Shown here: piece after piece, positions 2,761 through 13,366 of the stretch
How positions within the stretch are numbered: position 1 is the first letter of the stretch
How the letters are laid out: every line of letters starts with the position of its first letter
Source: a virus
Length of the DNA: 21,083 nucleotides
Virus record (IMG/VR): IMGVR_UViG_3300001472_000240
Span: 1-21,083 of that record
Strand: one strand, 5' to 3'
Position numbers and translations under genes: made by a program
The notes under the pieces: model-generated
Told to the model about the DNA's origin: nothing
Database searches by the model: none
What the model saw: the letters and a program-made list of their open reading frames with translations, nothing else

Positions 2761-3351
2761 TTATGCCTTAACAGCTTTGTTCATTGGCTGTACTTTAGGC
2801 TTACCGAAGCCATCACCTAAGTTACCAACTTTGTTACTCTTACCATCGTTATAGCTTCCGGAATGAGACTTAGGTTCACCACCCTTGTCAGAAGGTCCAG
2901 CAGCTGGCTTGTGATGTACTTTGTTCATTGGCTGAACTTTAGGTTGTCCGAATCCTTCTCCTGTGTTACCAACTTTATTGCTTTTACCATCGTTATAATG
3001 GGTGTTAAAAGCAGTAGGCTCACCTTCGTTATCTTCTTCATTTTCCATTCCACCTATCTCATAATCTTCAGCTTCTGGAGCGTCAGTTTCTGTATCATCA
3101 GCAGCTTCATCAGCATCGTCATCAACTTCTTCTCCACACGCAGCTTTGAGAATATCACAAAGATGTTGTGCAAGTTCTTTATCAAGTGTAATTGTTACTT
3201 CCTCTTCTGCATCGTCACCTTCGTCAGCAAGATCCTCATCAGGAGTTGCATCTTCAATACCGAGAGCATCAAGGTCATCAACTTCTTCCATTCCGAAGTC
3301 TTCGCTAATGACTTTGGCATAGAGTTCATCAAAAATAGATTTATTGGCCAT
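2761..3351 (-). CDS. Predicted nested product: internal in-frame start of the acidic protein
   Basis: An ATG at codon 131 of the acidic protein gene is preceded on the - strand by GACTAAATA, then five bases (AATAT), then ATG. That is the same box and spacing seen at the confirmed gene starts of this window, and GACTAAATA is identical to the box before the tube-fold gene at 11242. The product would be the 196 C-terminal residues, keeping the acidic region and both repeats. MANKSIFDELYAKV looks like a natural protein start. Nested in-frame late genes are known in T4 (for example within gene 17). It is inferred from the signal only. Confidence 0.4.
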   Translation of the reverse strand: MANKSIFDELYAKVISEDFGMEEVDDLDALGIEDATPDEDLADEGDDAEEEVTITLDKELAQHLCDILKAACGEEVDDDADEAADDTETDAPEAEDYEIGGMENEEDNEGEPTAFNTHYNDGKSNKVGNTGEGFGQPKVQPMNKVHHKPAAGPSDKGGEPKSHSGSYNDGKSNKVGNLGDGFGKPKVQPMNKAVKA

Positions 3352-3741
3352 ATATTTATTTAGTCCCTCCCGCGCAATTTCAAGTACTTCTTTGGAAAAT
3401 TCTTCATCTTCTTCAGCAGTTGAGCTTTCTGGATCATCTTTGTCGTCTCCTGCCTCCTTTTCTGCTGGTTGCTCTGTCTCAAGAGTAGGGCAGTTATCAT
3501 CTCCATAAGAAAGTCCTTTTATATTGTATGGATTTTTGTCTCCTACCTTTTTAATATCAACTTCTGATTCTTCAAACCCACCTTCTTTCGTTGGGCCTCC
3601 TGGTTGAATATCTGCATTACCTGTATTGGCGTTTTTGTCGCCAACTGTTTGCGCTTCTAAATTCTCAGCAACAACAGCAGCCTCATTACCAAGGTTACCA
3701 TAAACCTCGCCGAGATCCGTAAGGTCGTTCTTTTTAGCCAT
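2761..3741 (-). CDS. Acidic, repeat-bearing protein; possible scaffold/internal virion protein
   Basis: A 326-residue protein not recognised with confidence. It has three parts: residues 1-130 are polar and low-complexity with VGDKN twice; residues 131-245 start MANKSIFDELYAKV and continue into a very Asp/Glu-rich stretch with one helical patch (ITLDKELAQHLCDILKAACGEE); residues 249-322 carry two 26-residue direct repeats (249-274 and 297-322) of the pattern YNDGKSNKVGNxGxGFGxPKVQPMNK. The start ATG at 3741 follows CATAAATA (3747-3754) by 5 bases. An acidic, low-complexity composition beside packaging and neck genes resembles T4-type prohead core proteins, but this is only analogy. An internal start at 3351 is described separately. 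Confidence 0.7.
   Translation of the reverse strand: MAKKNDLTDLGEVYGNLGNEAAVVAENLEAQTVGDKNANTGNADIQPGGPTKEGGFEESEVDIKKVGDKNPYNIKGLSYGDDNCPTLETEQPAEKEAGDDKDDPESSTAEEDEEFSKEVLEIAREGLNKYMANKSIFDELYAKVISEDFGMEEVDDLDALGIEDATPDEDLADEGDDAEEEVTITLDKELAQHLCDILKAACGEEVDDDADEAADDTETDAPEAEDYEIGGMENEEDNEGEPTAFNTHYNDGKSNKVGNTGEGFGQPKVQPMNKVHHKPAAGPSDKGGEPKSHSGSYNDGKSNKVGNLGDGFGKPKVQPMNKAVKA
3357..3364 (-). promoter_or_regulatory. Internal late-promoter-like ACTAAATA, 5 bases before an in-frame ATG
   Basis: It lies inside the acidic protein gene and reads GACTAAATA-AATAT-ATG on the - strand. It fits the spacing rule exactly and predicts a nested transcript. Confidence 0.45.
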
Positions 3742-3746
3742 GCTAA

Positions 3747-3754
3747 TATTTATG
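3747..3754 (-). promoter_or_regulatory. Late-promoter-like CATAAATA, 5 bases before ATG
   Basis: On the - strand it reads CATAAATA-TTAGC-ATG, ahead of the acidic protein. With the box at 3802-3809 it forms a divergent promoter pair in the 78-base gap. Confidence 0.6.
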
Positions 3755-3819: not shown

Positions 3820-5523
3820 ATGGCTAAAAAAGATACAGGTATGTACTATATGGGTAATGATAATTTACCTAATCGGAATTGGCAAGGAGAATATACACCA
3901 GATAAGATTAAAGCTCTTAAGAAAGCTCAAAACAATATCTTATATTTTGCTGAGAATTTTTTCTATATTGTTAATTTGGATTCAGGTAAAGAAAAAATTA
4001 AGCTATATCCAGCTCAAAAGAAGGCTCTAAGGGCGATGAGAGATAATCGCTTCTATATTTTATTAGCATCACGTCAGATTGGTAAGTCTACTTTGATGAC
4101 AATTTATCTTTTATGGCAAGCTATCTTCCTAAAAGATCAGCGCATTCTGCTCGTCGCGAACAAAGAAGCCACTGCTATTGAAATCTTTTCACGAGTTAGA
4201 ATGGCCTATGAAGAGCTGCCCAACTGGCTCAAATCACCAGTTAAAGAATATGCGAAGACGTCTATGACTCTAGAAAATGGTTCTCGTATTGGTATTACGA
4301 CTACTACCGGTACAGCTGCTCGAGGTCAGTCTGTAAATTGTTTAGTAATTGACGAGATGGCCTTCATTGAACCCCACCTGGTTGATGAGTTTTGGAAATC
4401 TGTCTTTCCAATTATCTCTTCATCTAAGAAATCTAAAGCCTTTGTATGTTCAACTGCCAATGGTACACAGAATCTTTTCTATAGATTATACAATGGTGCT
4501 GAGACAGGAGAGAATGGTTGGGCCTATGGAAAGATATTGTGGAATGAAGTGCCAGGTCGTGATGAGAAATGGGCTAGCAGTACAAAGTTAACGATTGGAT
4601 CAGCTGAAGCCTGGCGTCAAGAGTTCTGTTGCGAATGGATTAACTCTGGTGAAGCTTCTATCGATGATGCTTTATACGAAATGATGGAGCGTCAAATATG
4701 TGACCCAGCAGTTACATTAGATGATGGGTGCTATAAAGTATGGGAGGAAGCTCAAGAGGGTAGAATATATGCTGCTGGTGTTGATACTGCAGAGGGTGTA
4801 GGAAAGGATAGTTCTATTATTCAAATGCTTGACGTTACTGATCCAGCTGAAGTAAGGCAAGTAGCAGTCTATCGTAACAATAAAATATCTCCAATGGAGT
4901 TTAGTAACAAAGTCTTTAAGATACTACGTAACTACGGATCTCCACTTGCGTTAGTAGAACGTAACAATTGTGGTGCCCAAGTTGTTGATCGCTTGGCCCA
5001 TGATATGGGTTACCCTAAATTAGTATCATATGGTAATAGCGCTGCTCATAGAAAAAAGCGCATGCAGGGTATGATTGCTCATACTAATACGAAGCATAGA
5101 GGTATTATTAATATGCGCTACTGGATGAATGATCTTAAATCGATCGTGATGCGAGATGCTGAGACGTTGGAAGAGCTTCGTAACTTTGTTCGGTATCCTA
5201 ATGGTACTTGGAAAGCTAGACATGGTTGTCATGATGATTTAGTAATGGCTTTAATGTATGGATATTATGTTCTAGATAATGAAATATGTGAGCAATATTT
5301 TGAGATTATAGAGAAAGATGATACTGGTCGGCCAAAGGCTATTGAGCCTTTAGACTTTGGTATATCGTTATTTGAGGATCCAACATCGATATATACAGAT
5401 AATGAAGTAACTGGTGGTAGTCCAGATCTTAATCCTGTTTATTGGGGCATGGCAAATAGTGATGATAACGATATGGGTGACGATTATTATGATCTAATAG
5501 ATCAAGGGTTCACACAACTATAG
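3820..5523 (+). CDS. terL: Terminase large subunit, T4 gp17-like
   Basis: A 567-residue packaging motor protein that hydrolyses ATP to pump DNA into the prohead and cuts the concatemer. The N-terminal ATPase has Walker A SRQIGKST (84-91), Walker B LVIDE (175-179, D178/E179) and the coupling motif STANG (211-215). The C-terminal RNase H-like nuclease has acidic residues at GVDTAEG (D322), LVERNN (E380) and HDD (D472/D473). Length is close to T4 gp17 (610). The ATG at 3820 gives MAKKDTGMYYMG and follows GATTAAATA by 10 bases. The next gene begins 13 bases after the stop with its own late box. The partner small subunit is not adjacent: its candidate is about 14 kb downstream on the other strand. 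Confidence 0.95.
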   Translation: MAKKDTGMYYMGNDNLPNRNWQGEYTPDKIKALKKAQNNILYFAENFFYIVNLDSGKEKIKLYPAQKKALRAMRDNRFYILLASRQIGKSTLMTIYLLWQAIFLKDQRILLVANKEATAIEIFSRVRMAYEELPNWLKSPVKEYAKTSMTLENGSRIGITTTTGTAARGQSVNCLVIDEMAFIEPHLVDEFWKSVFPIISSSKKSKAFVCSTANGTQNLFYRLYNGAETGENGWAYGKILWNEVPGRDEKWASSTKLTIGSAEAWRQEFCCEWINSGEASIDDALYEMMERQICDPAVTLDDGCYKVWEEAQEGRIYAAGVDTAEGVGKDSSIIQMLDVTDPAEVRQVAVYRNNKISPMEFSNKVFKILRNYGSPLALVERNNCGAQVVDRLAHDMGYPKLVSYGNSAAHRKKRMQGMIAHTNTKHRGIINMRYWMNDLKSIVMRDAETLEELRNFVRYPNGTWKARHGCHDDLVMALMYGYYVLDNEICEQYFEIIEKDDTGRPKAIEPLDFGISLFEDPTSIYTDNEVTGGSPDLNPVYWGMANSDDNDMGDDYYDLIDQGFTQL

Positions 5524-5536: not shown

Positions 5537-6115
5537 ATGGCTGTAAATCAAAACGACCAATCCTTTCTTAATAAAAGCAGAACAGATAAGTTTAAGCTTG
5601 TCTTTTCATTACCCCCAGCTTTACGTAAAATAAATTCAAAAACTGATAGGCAGACATTTAGCGTTAATGAAGATGCATTTCAGTTTTCTGTATATGGTGC
5701 TGTTGTACCAGAATTAGATGTGCCGGCATTACAAATTAGATATGGAGGATCTAATCTATATAACTCAACTCATGCGAGGGAGCCATACCCACCGGTGACG
5801 ATTGACTTTACTATTGATAATGGATTTAATAACTACTGGGTATTATATAAGTGGTTAGACTTGATGCATGATGAGAAAGAAGGGTTATATGATGCATCTG
5901 ATTTAGTTTCTGATGAGGACTTTAAAAATTATCAAACAGATATGACTTTGTATGGGCTTGATGAGTTTAATAACGAACGTATTCAATTTACATATACAAA
6001 AGCTTTTCCGGTTACAATAGGTAGTATTAATTATAATTATAGAACAGCAGAGGAAATTACATCTTCTATGACATTTGTCTATTCTCAAATACATACAAAA
6101 CTTATTAACTACTAA
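5537..6115 (+). CDS. Tail tube-fold protein (gp19-like)
   Basis: A 192-residue protein encoded directly upstream of the sheath. It has the order seen in T4 gp19: an N-terminal strand after a polar start (RTDKFKLVFSLPP), a middle segment like REPYPPVTIDFTIDNGFNNYWVLYKWLD (gp19: a WTVTVMND-type strand then a helix with VDW), and a C-terminal pair KAFPVTIGSINYNYRTAEEI / TFVYSQIH that parallels gp19 WPTNVGELQLDW...ALDYWE. It is probably the tail tube subunit or a tube-fold completion protein. Another tube-fold gene at 11242 competes for the major-tube role, so the exact assignment is open; next to the sheath is the usual gp19 position in T4. Confidence 0.65.
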   Translation: MAVNQNDQSFLNKSRTDKFKLVFSLPPALRKINSKTDRQTFSVNEDAFQFSVYGAVVPELDVPALQIRYGGSNLYNSTHAREPYPPVTIDFTIDNGFNNYWVLYKWLDLMHDEKEGLYDASDLVSDEDFKNYQTDMTLYGLDEFNNERIQFTYTKAFPVTIGSINYNYRTAEEITSSMTFVYSQIHTKLINY

Positions 6116-6148: not shown

Positions 6149-6156
6149 CATAAATA
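6149..6156 (+). promoter_or_regulatory. Late-promoter-like CATAAATA, 5 bases before the sheath ATG
   Basis: GCATAAATA-ATGTT-ATG. The box fixes the sheath start at 6162. Confidence 0.6.
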
Positions 6157-6161
6157 ATGTT

Positions 6162-8498
6162 ATGGCTAATAGGACAATTCAATCTCCAGGTGTCGAGATT
6201 CGTGAGAGTGATTTATCACTCCGCACAGCTCAGACAGGCACTACAACGTATATTGCTGGATTCGCTTCCGAAGGACCTACAGATGAAGTTATTGGACTTG
6301 GAAATATTTCTGAGTTCGAACAAATCTACGGTACTCCAAAGACTCCAGCAGAAAGATATTTTTATCACTCTGCGCGCGCTGCTTTAAACTCTACCGGCTC
6401 TTTGCTAGTTAACCGCTTACCATATGGTGCGGCAAGCGGTCAGGGATTTGGTTCAAAGGTAAGTGTTCTTGCATACCCAGCTGCGGTTTATGATGAAGGG
6501 GGCAGCTTCAATCAAACTTCATATGAACTTTCCGGCGCAGGAACTTATCTCTTAGGCCGACCAACTCAGTTTGATATTACTAATGAGCAATACTTACAGC
6601 TCAAGAGTGGTCAATTGTTTGATGTTGGTAGTCGATCTGTTAGTAGCGGAGCACTAAATTCTGTCGGTGCTTTAAGTGGTGCGGCAGTAATTGTTGTTAA
6701 TAAAGCTCAATCAGTTGTTGATAATCAATTTAATGGGTATTATGTTGGTTTAACTGACAATACTCTTTTAAACCCAGCAACGAATTTTGAGGCTATACAA
6801 AGTGTATTTTCGGTTACTACAGGCGCACCCGCTACTGGCACATCATCTTTTACACAAGTACCAGCATCACGGTTTGAGTTCTCTCTTACTGCTACGCCAG
6901 AATTTGGCGATAATCCTGCTAACGGATCGATTTCACAGGTAATGGAAGATCGTATTGAAGGTTATGATATTGGTGGACGTGAATTTGACGATGCCTTAAA
7001 TGTGGGTGTATTTAAATTACGACAGTCAGTCTTTTCGAAAGAATCAAATAAAATTGATTACCTTCTTGAAGAAGGTTATAATGCCTCTATCGGTAAATAT
7101 CGTCAGCGTAATTCAGAAAACGGTGGCGCGCCAATTAACTTCAGTTTAGATTCTGTTGAAGAAAAATCGCGCAACATTGATGTTATTGTTAATCCGTTCG
7201 TATCAGATGCTACAACTGGAGTACAGCTTAAAGATGATGGTACACCTAAGTTTAAGGTTCGTATGTTTACAACCGCACTTAAAAGTGCTGTAGATTCAAG
7301 ATCGATCCCAGCAAGTGCATCTGGATTGAGTACGCTTTCACTAGCGTCTTCTTCTCTCCCCCTTGGGTTTAACAAAGCAGACAGTCTTGTTCCATTAGGT
7401 TCTTATGGTGATGTTGATCTTACCACGAAAGTAATCGGTAATATTCCAGGTAAGCTTGATCGCGCTCTTGATCGTATTCGTAACGATCGTAAGTTTGATA
7501 TCAGTATGATTGCTGAAGCTGGTCTCGGTACTATTAATACATATATGGATAGCTCATCAGCCACAAACGGGTTCGACGATACGAAAACAACAACTCAAAT
7601 TGAGGCCTTGAGAACTTCAGGTGATCTTGATTCTAGTGGTGGTCAAGCTCGTACTGCTTATATGAACGTCTTCAATAAGTTTGCTACATTTGCAGGACCT
7701 GCCAAAGATGGCGGCCGCGGTGATATCTTATTCATTGCTGATCCAATTCGTCAGTTAGTTGTAACTGGTACAAATAGCAAAGTTCAGAAGGATCCTAATA
7801 AGAACTTCTATACACACATCTACTGGGCAATCAGACATCAGTTTGAATTAGCTAATACCTCTTATGCTACTGCATATGCTAACTGGATGAGTGTTCCTGA
7901 TAACTACACAGGATTAAATGTTTGGGTTCCATCATCTGGATTTGCCGCTGCTAAGATGGCTTCTACTGATGCTGCTGTTGGACCATGGGGTGCACCTGCT
8001 GGATTCAACAGAGGTGTTATTACTGATGCTTCTGACATTGCTGTTACACCTAACCAACGTCAACGTGATGACCTTTACACAGCTAACCTCAATCCAATTG
8101 CTAACTTTGCAGATCAAGGTAATGTATTCTTTGGACAGAAGACATTGCTAAGAAAGCCAAGTGCATTTGATCGTATTAACGTTCGTCGTACATTCTTATA
8201 TCTTGAGAAGATTACTAAGAAGACGATGCAGTTCTTCCTCTTTGAGAACAATACATTGTTTACAAGGACACGCGTTACTAATACATTAACACCGTTCTTT
8301 GAGCGTGTTAAAGCTGCTGATGGTCTTTACGACTTTATGATTGTTTGCGATGATCGTAACAATACAGCAGAAGTAATTGATCAGAATGAGCTTATTGTTG
8401 ACATTTATCTCAAGCCAGTACGTACTGCAGAGTTTATCTTAGTTAACTTCTACGCTACTCGGACGGATGCAAGCTTCGAAGAGCTTGTTGGAAGTTAA
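6162..8498 (+). CDS. gp18: Tail sheath protein, T4 gp18-like
   Basis: A 778-residue contractile sheath subunit that surrounds the tube and drives it through the envelope. The N-terminus MANRTIQSPGVEIRESDLS followed by GFASEGPTDEVIGLGNISEFEQIYG is the classic sheath start (SPGVxIxExDxS, then the GxxxxGP and F..xYG segments). The C-terminal quarter carries the conserved block with RRTFLYLEKITKKTMQFFLFENN and DIYLKPVRTAEFILVNFYATR, which links neighbouring subunits. It is longer than T4 gp18 (659), with extra material in the middle that is probably a surface domain. An upstream in-frame ATG at 6075 would overlap the preceding gene; ATG 6162 is preferred because CATAAATA lies 5 bases before it and the family start aligns there. 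A strong terminator follows. Confidence 0.93.
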   Translation: MANRTIQSPGVEIRESDLSLRTAQTGTTTYIAGFASEGPTDEVIGLGNISEFEQIYGTPKTPAERYFYHSARAALNSTGSLLVNRLPYGAASGQGFGSKVSVLAYPAAVYDEGGSFNQTSYELSGAGTYLLGRPTQFDITNEQYLQLKSGQLFDVGSRSVSSGALNSVGALSGAAVIVVNKAQSVVDNQFNGYYVGLTDNTLLNPATNFEAIQSVFSVTTGAPATGTSSFTQVPASRFEFSLTATPEFGDNPANGSISQVMEDRIEGYDIGGREFDDALNVGVFKLRQSVFSKESNKIDYLLEEGYNASIGKYRQRNSENGGAPINFSLDSVEEKSRNIDVIVNPFVSDATTGVQLKDDGTPKFKVRMFTTALKSAVDSRSIPASASGLSTLSLASSSLPLGFNKADSLVPLGSYGDVDLTTKVIGNIPGKLDRALDRIRNDRKFDISMIAEAGLGTINTYMDSSSATNGFDDTKTTTQIEALRTSGDLDSSGGQARTAYMNVFNKFATFAGPAKDGGRGDILFIADPIRQLVVTGTNSKVQKDPNKNFYTHIYWAIRHQFELANTSYATAYANWMSVPDNYTGLNVWVPSSGFAAAKMASTDAAVGPWGAPAGFNRGVITDASDIAVTPNQRQRDDLYTANLNPIANFADQGNVFFGQKTLLRKPSAFDRINVRRTFLYLEKITKKTMQFFLFENNTLFTRTRVTNTLTPFFERVKAADGLYDFMIVCDDRNNTAEVIDQNELIVDIYLKPVRTAEFILVNFYATRTDASFEELVGS

Positions 8499-13339: not shown

Positions 13340-13358
13340 TTGCATTTTAAAAACATAT

Positions 13359-13366
13359 GATAAATA
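13359..13366 (+). promoter_or_regulatory. Late-promoter-like GATAAATA, 5 bases before ATG
   Basis: GATAAATA-AGGTT-ATG. It fixes the next start at 13372 instead of 13357. Confidence 0.55.

Follow-up and report, generated by a model that had tools for sequence, protein, structure and literature searches.

An uncultured marine T4-like phage has an open frame placed head to head with its large terminase gene: does this frame encode one protein or two? The window, i.e., the whole 21,083-nt stretch of DNA analysed here (IMG/VR record IMGVR_UViG_3300001472_000240), carries on its minus strand a strongly acidic ORF, codon 131 of which (3351..3349) is an ATG. An earlier note made from the sequence of this DNA had observed that TAAATA and exactly five bases stand before this ATG, and had proposed that a late promoter inside the gene yields two co-terminal products. 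The signal is indeed present: the minus strand across the site reads GGGACTAAATAAATATATGGCC, with TAAATA at 3362..3357, the spacer AATAT and then the ATG, the bases preceding which are GGGACTAAATAAATATATG. The parts of the locus are as follows.

2761..3741, minus strand: acidic ORF (long product), an open frame of 326 codons (326 aa) with its own start of the form TAAATA, five bases, ATG.
3747..3752, minus strand: late-promoter box TAAATA of the long product, five bases upstream of the ATG at 3741.
3357..3362, minus strand: nested late-promoter box TAAATA, in frame within the codons CTA AAT AAA, five bases upstream of the ATG at 3351.
2761..3351, minus strand: nested frame of 196 codons (196 aa), the predicted leaderless short co-terminal product MANKSIFDELYAKVISEDFG..., with an ATG invariant in 68/68 contexts.
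3298..3351, minus strand: head of the short product, 18 residues, MANKSIFDELYAKVISED, a candidate capsid-targeting propeptide with [ILV]xE at residues 15-17 and putative processing.
2764..3019, minus strand: C-terminal repeat region NTHYNDGKSNKVGN...QPMNKV, common to both products (translation and alignment).
3820..5523, plus strand: divergent neighbour, the terminase large subunit (gp17-like), from tblastn against T4-like terminase large subunits (best 38.7%).

The hexamer is uninformative by itself, because its count in the window (40 observed) matches that in shuffles (39.2 expected); the informative part is that it stands at a constant distance from a start codon. In 330 kb of sequence, comprising the window plus five contigs from relatives, 88 of the ORFs with 80 or more codons start five bases past a TAAATA (72 with ATG, 16 with GTG) and 31 start six bases past it, with no other distance accounting for more than 9. 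The nested signal has the same box and spacing as these 88 starts, in keeping with the earlier reading that it cannot be told from the signal of a true gene start. A 171-kb relative has 44 starts at gap five and 17 at gap six, and the nested site is its sole box start more than 50 codons inside an ORF. Across seven contigs of the lineage, 7/1,404 internal in-frame ATGs are preceded by TAAATA and five bases, one per contig and all at the orthologous nested site. The nested site is not a product of chance. Separately, the same spacing suggests corrections to three gene starts in the window: for the ORF called at 13357 the probable start is 13372, with TAAATA at 13361-13366 within the called ORF and the ATG five bases on; the sheath gene probably starts at the ATG at 6162 (box at 6151-6156 plus five bases) rather than at the TTG at 6075; and the small gene at 2335-2709 probably starts at 2676, where it has its own box and five-base gap.

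In T4, the late box TATAAATA is located at -13 to -6, and variants differing in the first bases have been described, such as CTAAATA in Aeh1 (PMC1524935). With this geometry a five-base gap would place +1 on the A of the ATG, thus predicting leaderless late mRNAs, while the gap-six peak would correspond to a one-base leader. Both the nested and outer starts display the T4-type form NTAAATA, with C, T or A as the first base, and a phage-encoded gp55-like protein is found in the relatives G009 (2.6e-17) and G015 (8e-18), the window itself being a 21-kb fragment. No gap-five peak is seen in T4, HTVC008M, phiM9, DSL-LC03, AG-345-L05, vB_Psh_XG4 or S-CRM01; in T4 the box-to-ATG gaps are mostly above 20, with the highest counts at 27-28. 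Likewise, SD-like 4-mers are found upstream of 3-13% of the ORFs in this lineage, as compared to 75% in T4 and 42-53% in the four other T4-like phages counted. By sequence, the genes in question have the attributes of leaderless genes, namely start codons that coincide with the predicted +1 and a scarcity of Shine-Dalgarno sequences, and we strongly infer that the late mRNAs of this lineage are leaderless. Genes starting five or six bases past TAAATA, structural ones included, are seen in the window and in G001, G009, G010, G011, G014 and G015. One of these relatives, G001, additionally codes at 31-36 kb (L171:13151-16091) for DUF1549/DUF1553 and DUF1501 proteins. The retrieved relatives of its DUF1501 protein (~30% identity) are mostly labelled Planctomycetota or Verrucomicrobiota, a label that might serve as a weak hint regarding the host.

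Homologs of the acidic ORF in IMG/VR show 39-93% identity, and tblastn recovered none from named phages in the phage collection searched. A terminase-anchored search (terminase identity 69-99%), whose loci are independent of the acidic gene, yielded 62 loci long enough to test, and 62/62 keep TAAATA, five bases and the ATG. The same holds for 80/80 loci from a second search with the nested region as the query, one of which required a looser head pattern; this search is partly biased in that one of its two patterns spans the box peptide and its contigs overlap the terminase-anchored set. Taking all loci together, TAAATA and the ATG are invariant in 68/68 distinct 90-nt contexts, and the base before the box, most spacer bases and the flanks are variable. 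The outer TAAATA box is also found in most relatives. The locus therefore comprises two starts in one frame with a common stop, kept in relatives, as expected of a nested in-frame pair. The earlier note had made its proposal depend in part on conservation of the box in relatives, and the proposal gains support on this count: box, spacing and ATG are exact in every relative that could be checked.

The conservation extends to the choice of codons. Among 40 sequences sharing less than 95% identity, 32 have CTA at codon 127, 5 have ATA and 3 have TTA, with CTA constituting 6.4% of the Leu codons elsewhere in the ORFs. Codon 128 is AAT in 40/40, versus 54% elsewhere, and codon 129 encodes Lys, Asn or Ile with A always as the first base. 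Close downstream, the invariant residues Ser135, Leu140 and Val144 are each encoded by several codons. The naive probability of this codon usage is ~10^-34, a value that is overstated, since it ignores the shared ancestry of the sequences. In these alignments the residues at the box vary while TAAATA does not, i.e., the DNA is conserved beyond the protein, and the peptide [GS][LI]N[NKI][FY]M is, on this evidence, the translated image of the predicted promoter. In some relatives the outer promoter is itself translated in the same frame, giving a similar SINNYM. No relative with the box peptide but without the hexamer was found among the terminase-neighbour loci, the second search or the 68 contexts. 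We also considered other uses of GGNYTAAATAAATATATG in viral contigs and set them aside, as matches outside the acidic-gene family are in unrelated frames.

The part upstream of the nested start ranges from ~93 to 314 codons across relatives, and the nested start nevertheless stays in frame; hence, the relatives preserve an uninterrupted frame as well as the internal start. The earlier note had suggested looking for relatives that encode the two parts as separate genes. None was found among the relatives with enough sequence, where the parts are fused, isolated broken frames aside. These are L133/L255, in which the N-terminal frame is broken and the nested frame intact, and L047/L022, with a stop 39 codons past the nested start; we read each as a single broken copy or a sequencing error. 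Such an arrangement could have arisen if two neighbouring genes fused long ago and the second retained its promoter, but no unfused ancestor of the two-part gene was found. A profile comparison of the outer and nested heads was weak (16 columns, probability 55%) and offers a hint that the two heads might share a common origin. The protein had further been said to change character at codon 131: its acidity does not change (D+E fraction 0.25 before and 0.26 after), and what does stand out in the alignment is conservation, which peaks around the nested head.

We consider it highly probable that the locus comprises two co-terminal late genes in one frame with two gp55-type promoters and leaderless mRNAs, whose products are likely of the prohead core or internal to the head; the nested start itself likewise has a high probability. 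Under this proposal, a gp55-type late promoter (TAAATA) upstream of codon 1 would direct the mRNA for the 326-residue protein, and a second promoter within codons 127-129 would direct an mRNA from the A of codon 131 or an adjacent base for the 196-residue protein, with both mRNAs being leaderless. Two proteins, one long and one short and with a common tail, are thus very probably produced from this gene. Given few Shine-Dalgarno sequences and late starts set by promoter position, a promoter arising in frame would automatically create a start. Both products would be late, acidic and mostly disordered, and internal initiation would expose a second targeting-like N-terminal peptide, predicted as (M)ANKSIFDELYAK, on the short form.

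Three other readings merit consideration. Ribosomes could initiate at codon 131 on the long mRNA, in which case TAAATA would be a non-Shine-Dalgarno initiation signal and not a promoter. The lineage is poor in Shine-Dalgarno sequences, the box is positioned where a ribosome-binding element could be, and T4 gene 21 offers a precedent, its short form being annotated as a product of internal translation initiation (NC_000866), with the second start at Met45 (PMC9026906). Nevertheless, the hexamer fits the T4-type late promoter (PMC1524935), a gp55-like sigma is encoded by relatives, and the box precedes a subset of the genes of the lineage, many structural ones among them, rather than every start. 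We therefore regard this translational route as unlikely.

The other two readings are less probable still. An internal promoter mainly boosting the downstream same-strand genes (2335-2676 and head closure Hc2), with an incidental ATG, would not require that all relatives keep exactly five bases between the box and an in-frame ATG, nor that they avoid GTG, which is tolerated at 16/88 other starts and never occurs at the nested site. Same-strand genes do lie at 2676 and 2334, and internal late promoters are known elsewhere, for instance in phage AR9 (PMC5312081), but the gene at 2676 has its own box and five-base gap, and we hold this reading to be very improbable. Least probable of all, to the point of being barely credible, is that the box is kept only because the long protein needs the peptide. 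Its region is a predicted helix (112-132) and among the best conserved parts of the protein; yet L/I, K/N/I and Y/F substitutions occur while TAAATA is constant, and synonymous codons are avoided at 127 and 128 whereas S135, L140 and V144 use several.

As to function, Pfam gives no match for the acidic protein and PHROGs give weak, uninformative matches of unknown function: phrog_24078 matched 4/29 family members, and four members scanned singly gave no match. Thus, homology to known core or internal head proteins was not detected with either resource. The predicted structure has a mean pLDDT of 49.6 and is mostly disordered, with short helices at 3-28, 112-132, 136-146, 154-159 and 188-201. 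Downstream of the acidic gene on the same strand are the small gene and then head-closure Hc2, and in G014 the same strand continues with the portal, a neck protein, a gp4-like gene, the gp21 protease, a gp22-like scaffold and the major capsid protein, the gp4-like and gp22-like genes being named by sequence and position without a scored match. As the gp22-like gene is separate in G014, the main scaffold is another gene, and the acidic product would instead belong to the core or the internal proteins. A point against a role in the head is that in G015 the acidic gene is far from the capsid cluster.

The head of the short product is well conserved, with the consensus M(A/S)KKSVFDKLYxKVMVNE, and in 29/29 aligned homologs the nested product has an [ILV]xE whose last residue is number 17 or 18. 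T4 cleavage sites prefer L or I at P3, and many relatives have V at this position of the supposed site, which also counts against the head role. In T4, gp21 trims targeting propeptides of 10-19 residues from the N-termini of the internal proteins (PMC9026906), and comparable gp21 processing may be predicted for the nested head. Short heads ending in [LI]xE or similar are also seen in late-box or nearby proteins at G001 3372(-), G009 30786(-), G014 18533(-) and G001 39813(-); such heads (MTNFEKRFFKVLNE, MTKFEKRFLKSLNE, MRFSKLSNIILE) resemble targeting propeptides. An EAY-type head motif was examined for enrichment in late genes and dropped, being present in 2/55 only. The idea of a scaffold or internal protein in two forms, which the earlier note had raised, is plausible but unproven; our preferred reading, to which we give somewhat less than an even chance, places the acidic protein and its two forms in the core or among the internal head proteins. 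We would be similarly tentative in extending the model to the whole marine T4-like lineage, which might possess a leaderless late regulon whose start codons are fixed by promoter position alone and, within it, one head gene with two promoters and two co-terminal proteins that differ in their targeting peptides, the ratio of long to short form being set by promoter strength.

If these predictions hold, the late start sites of the lineage could be read straight from DNA, and the short product will everywhere escape gene callers that favor the longest frame. While T4 has a leader of about 20 bases between the late promoter and the start codon, leaders seem to have been lost throughout the late genes of this lineage, a matter of relevance to the way in which phage gene expression is adapted to hosts with little use for Shine-Dalgarno sequences. 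The nested pair would further be an uncomplicated example of a single frame in which two promoters determine two protein forms. Nested in-frame late products are already known in T4; what appears new is the leaderless arrangement, the gene family and the lineage-wide conservation. No earlier report of the gene family or of leaderless late genes in T4-like phages was found in the literature searched, a body that excludes most subscription journals.

Several known systems resemble parts of this arrangement. Phage lambda C/Nu3 is a co-terminal pair in a head gene, comprising a protease and a nested in-frame scaffold; the protein is unrelated, the upstream part of the acidic ORF is not a recognised protease, and we know of no separate late promoter in C/Nu3 of the kind of the nested TAAATA. 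T4 gp67 is, like the protein studied here, acidic, and to our knowledge no nested pair occurs in the genes for gp67, gp68 and IPI-III. These are core proteins with N-terminal propeptides removed by gp21 (PMC9026906), but they show no sequence family match to the acidic protein, whose head location is a prediction. In AR9, 13 late promoters lie within ORFs and are suggested to yield N-terminally truncated proteins; however, the polymerase and promoter are different, and the UTRs of 26-491 nt are not leaderless (PMC5312081). The gp21s form of T4 gene 21 is an in-frame shorter version of a prohead-core protein and is reported to be essential (PMC9026906), but it is a protease, not an acidic protein, and is annotated as arising by internal translation initiation. 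T4 gene 26 is also annotated with a co-terminal short form (NC_000866). T4 gene 17 has late in-frame co-terminal shorter products annotated as arising via internal transcription and translation (NC_000866). It encodes the large terminase, whereas all relatives that could be checked conserve the site in the acidic gene, a site predicted by its geometry to be leaderless.
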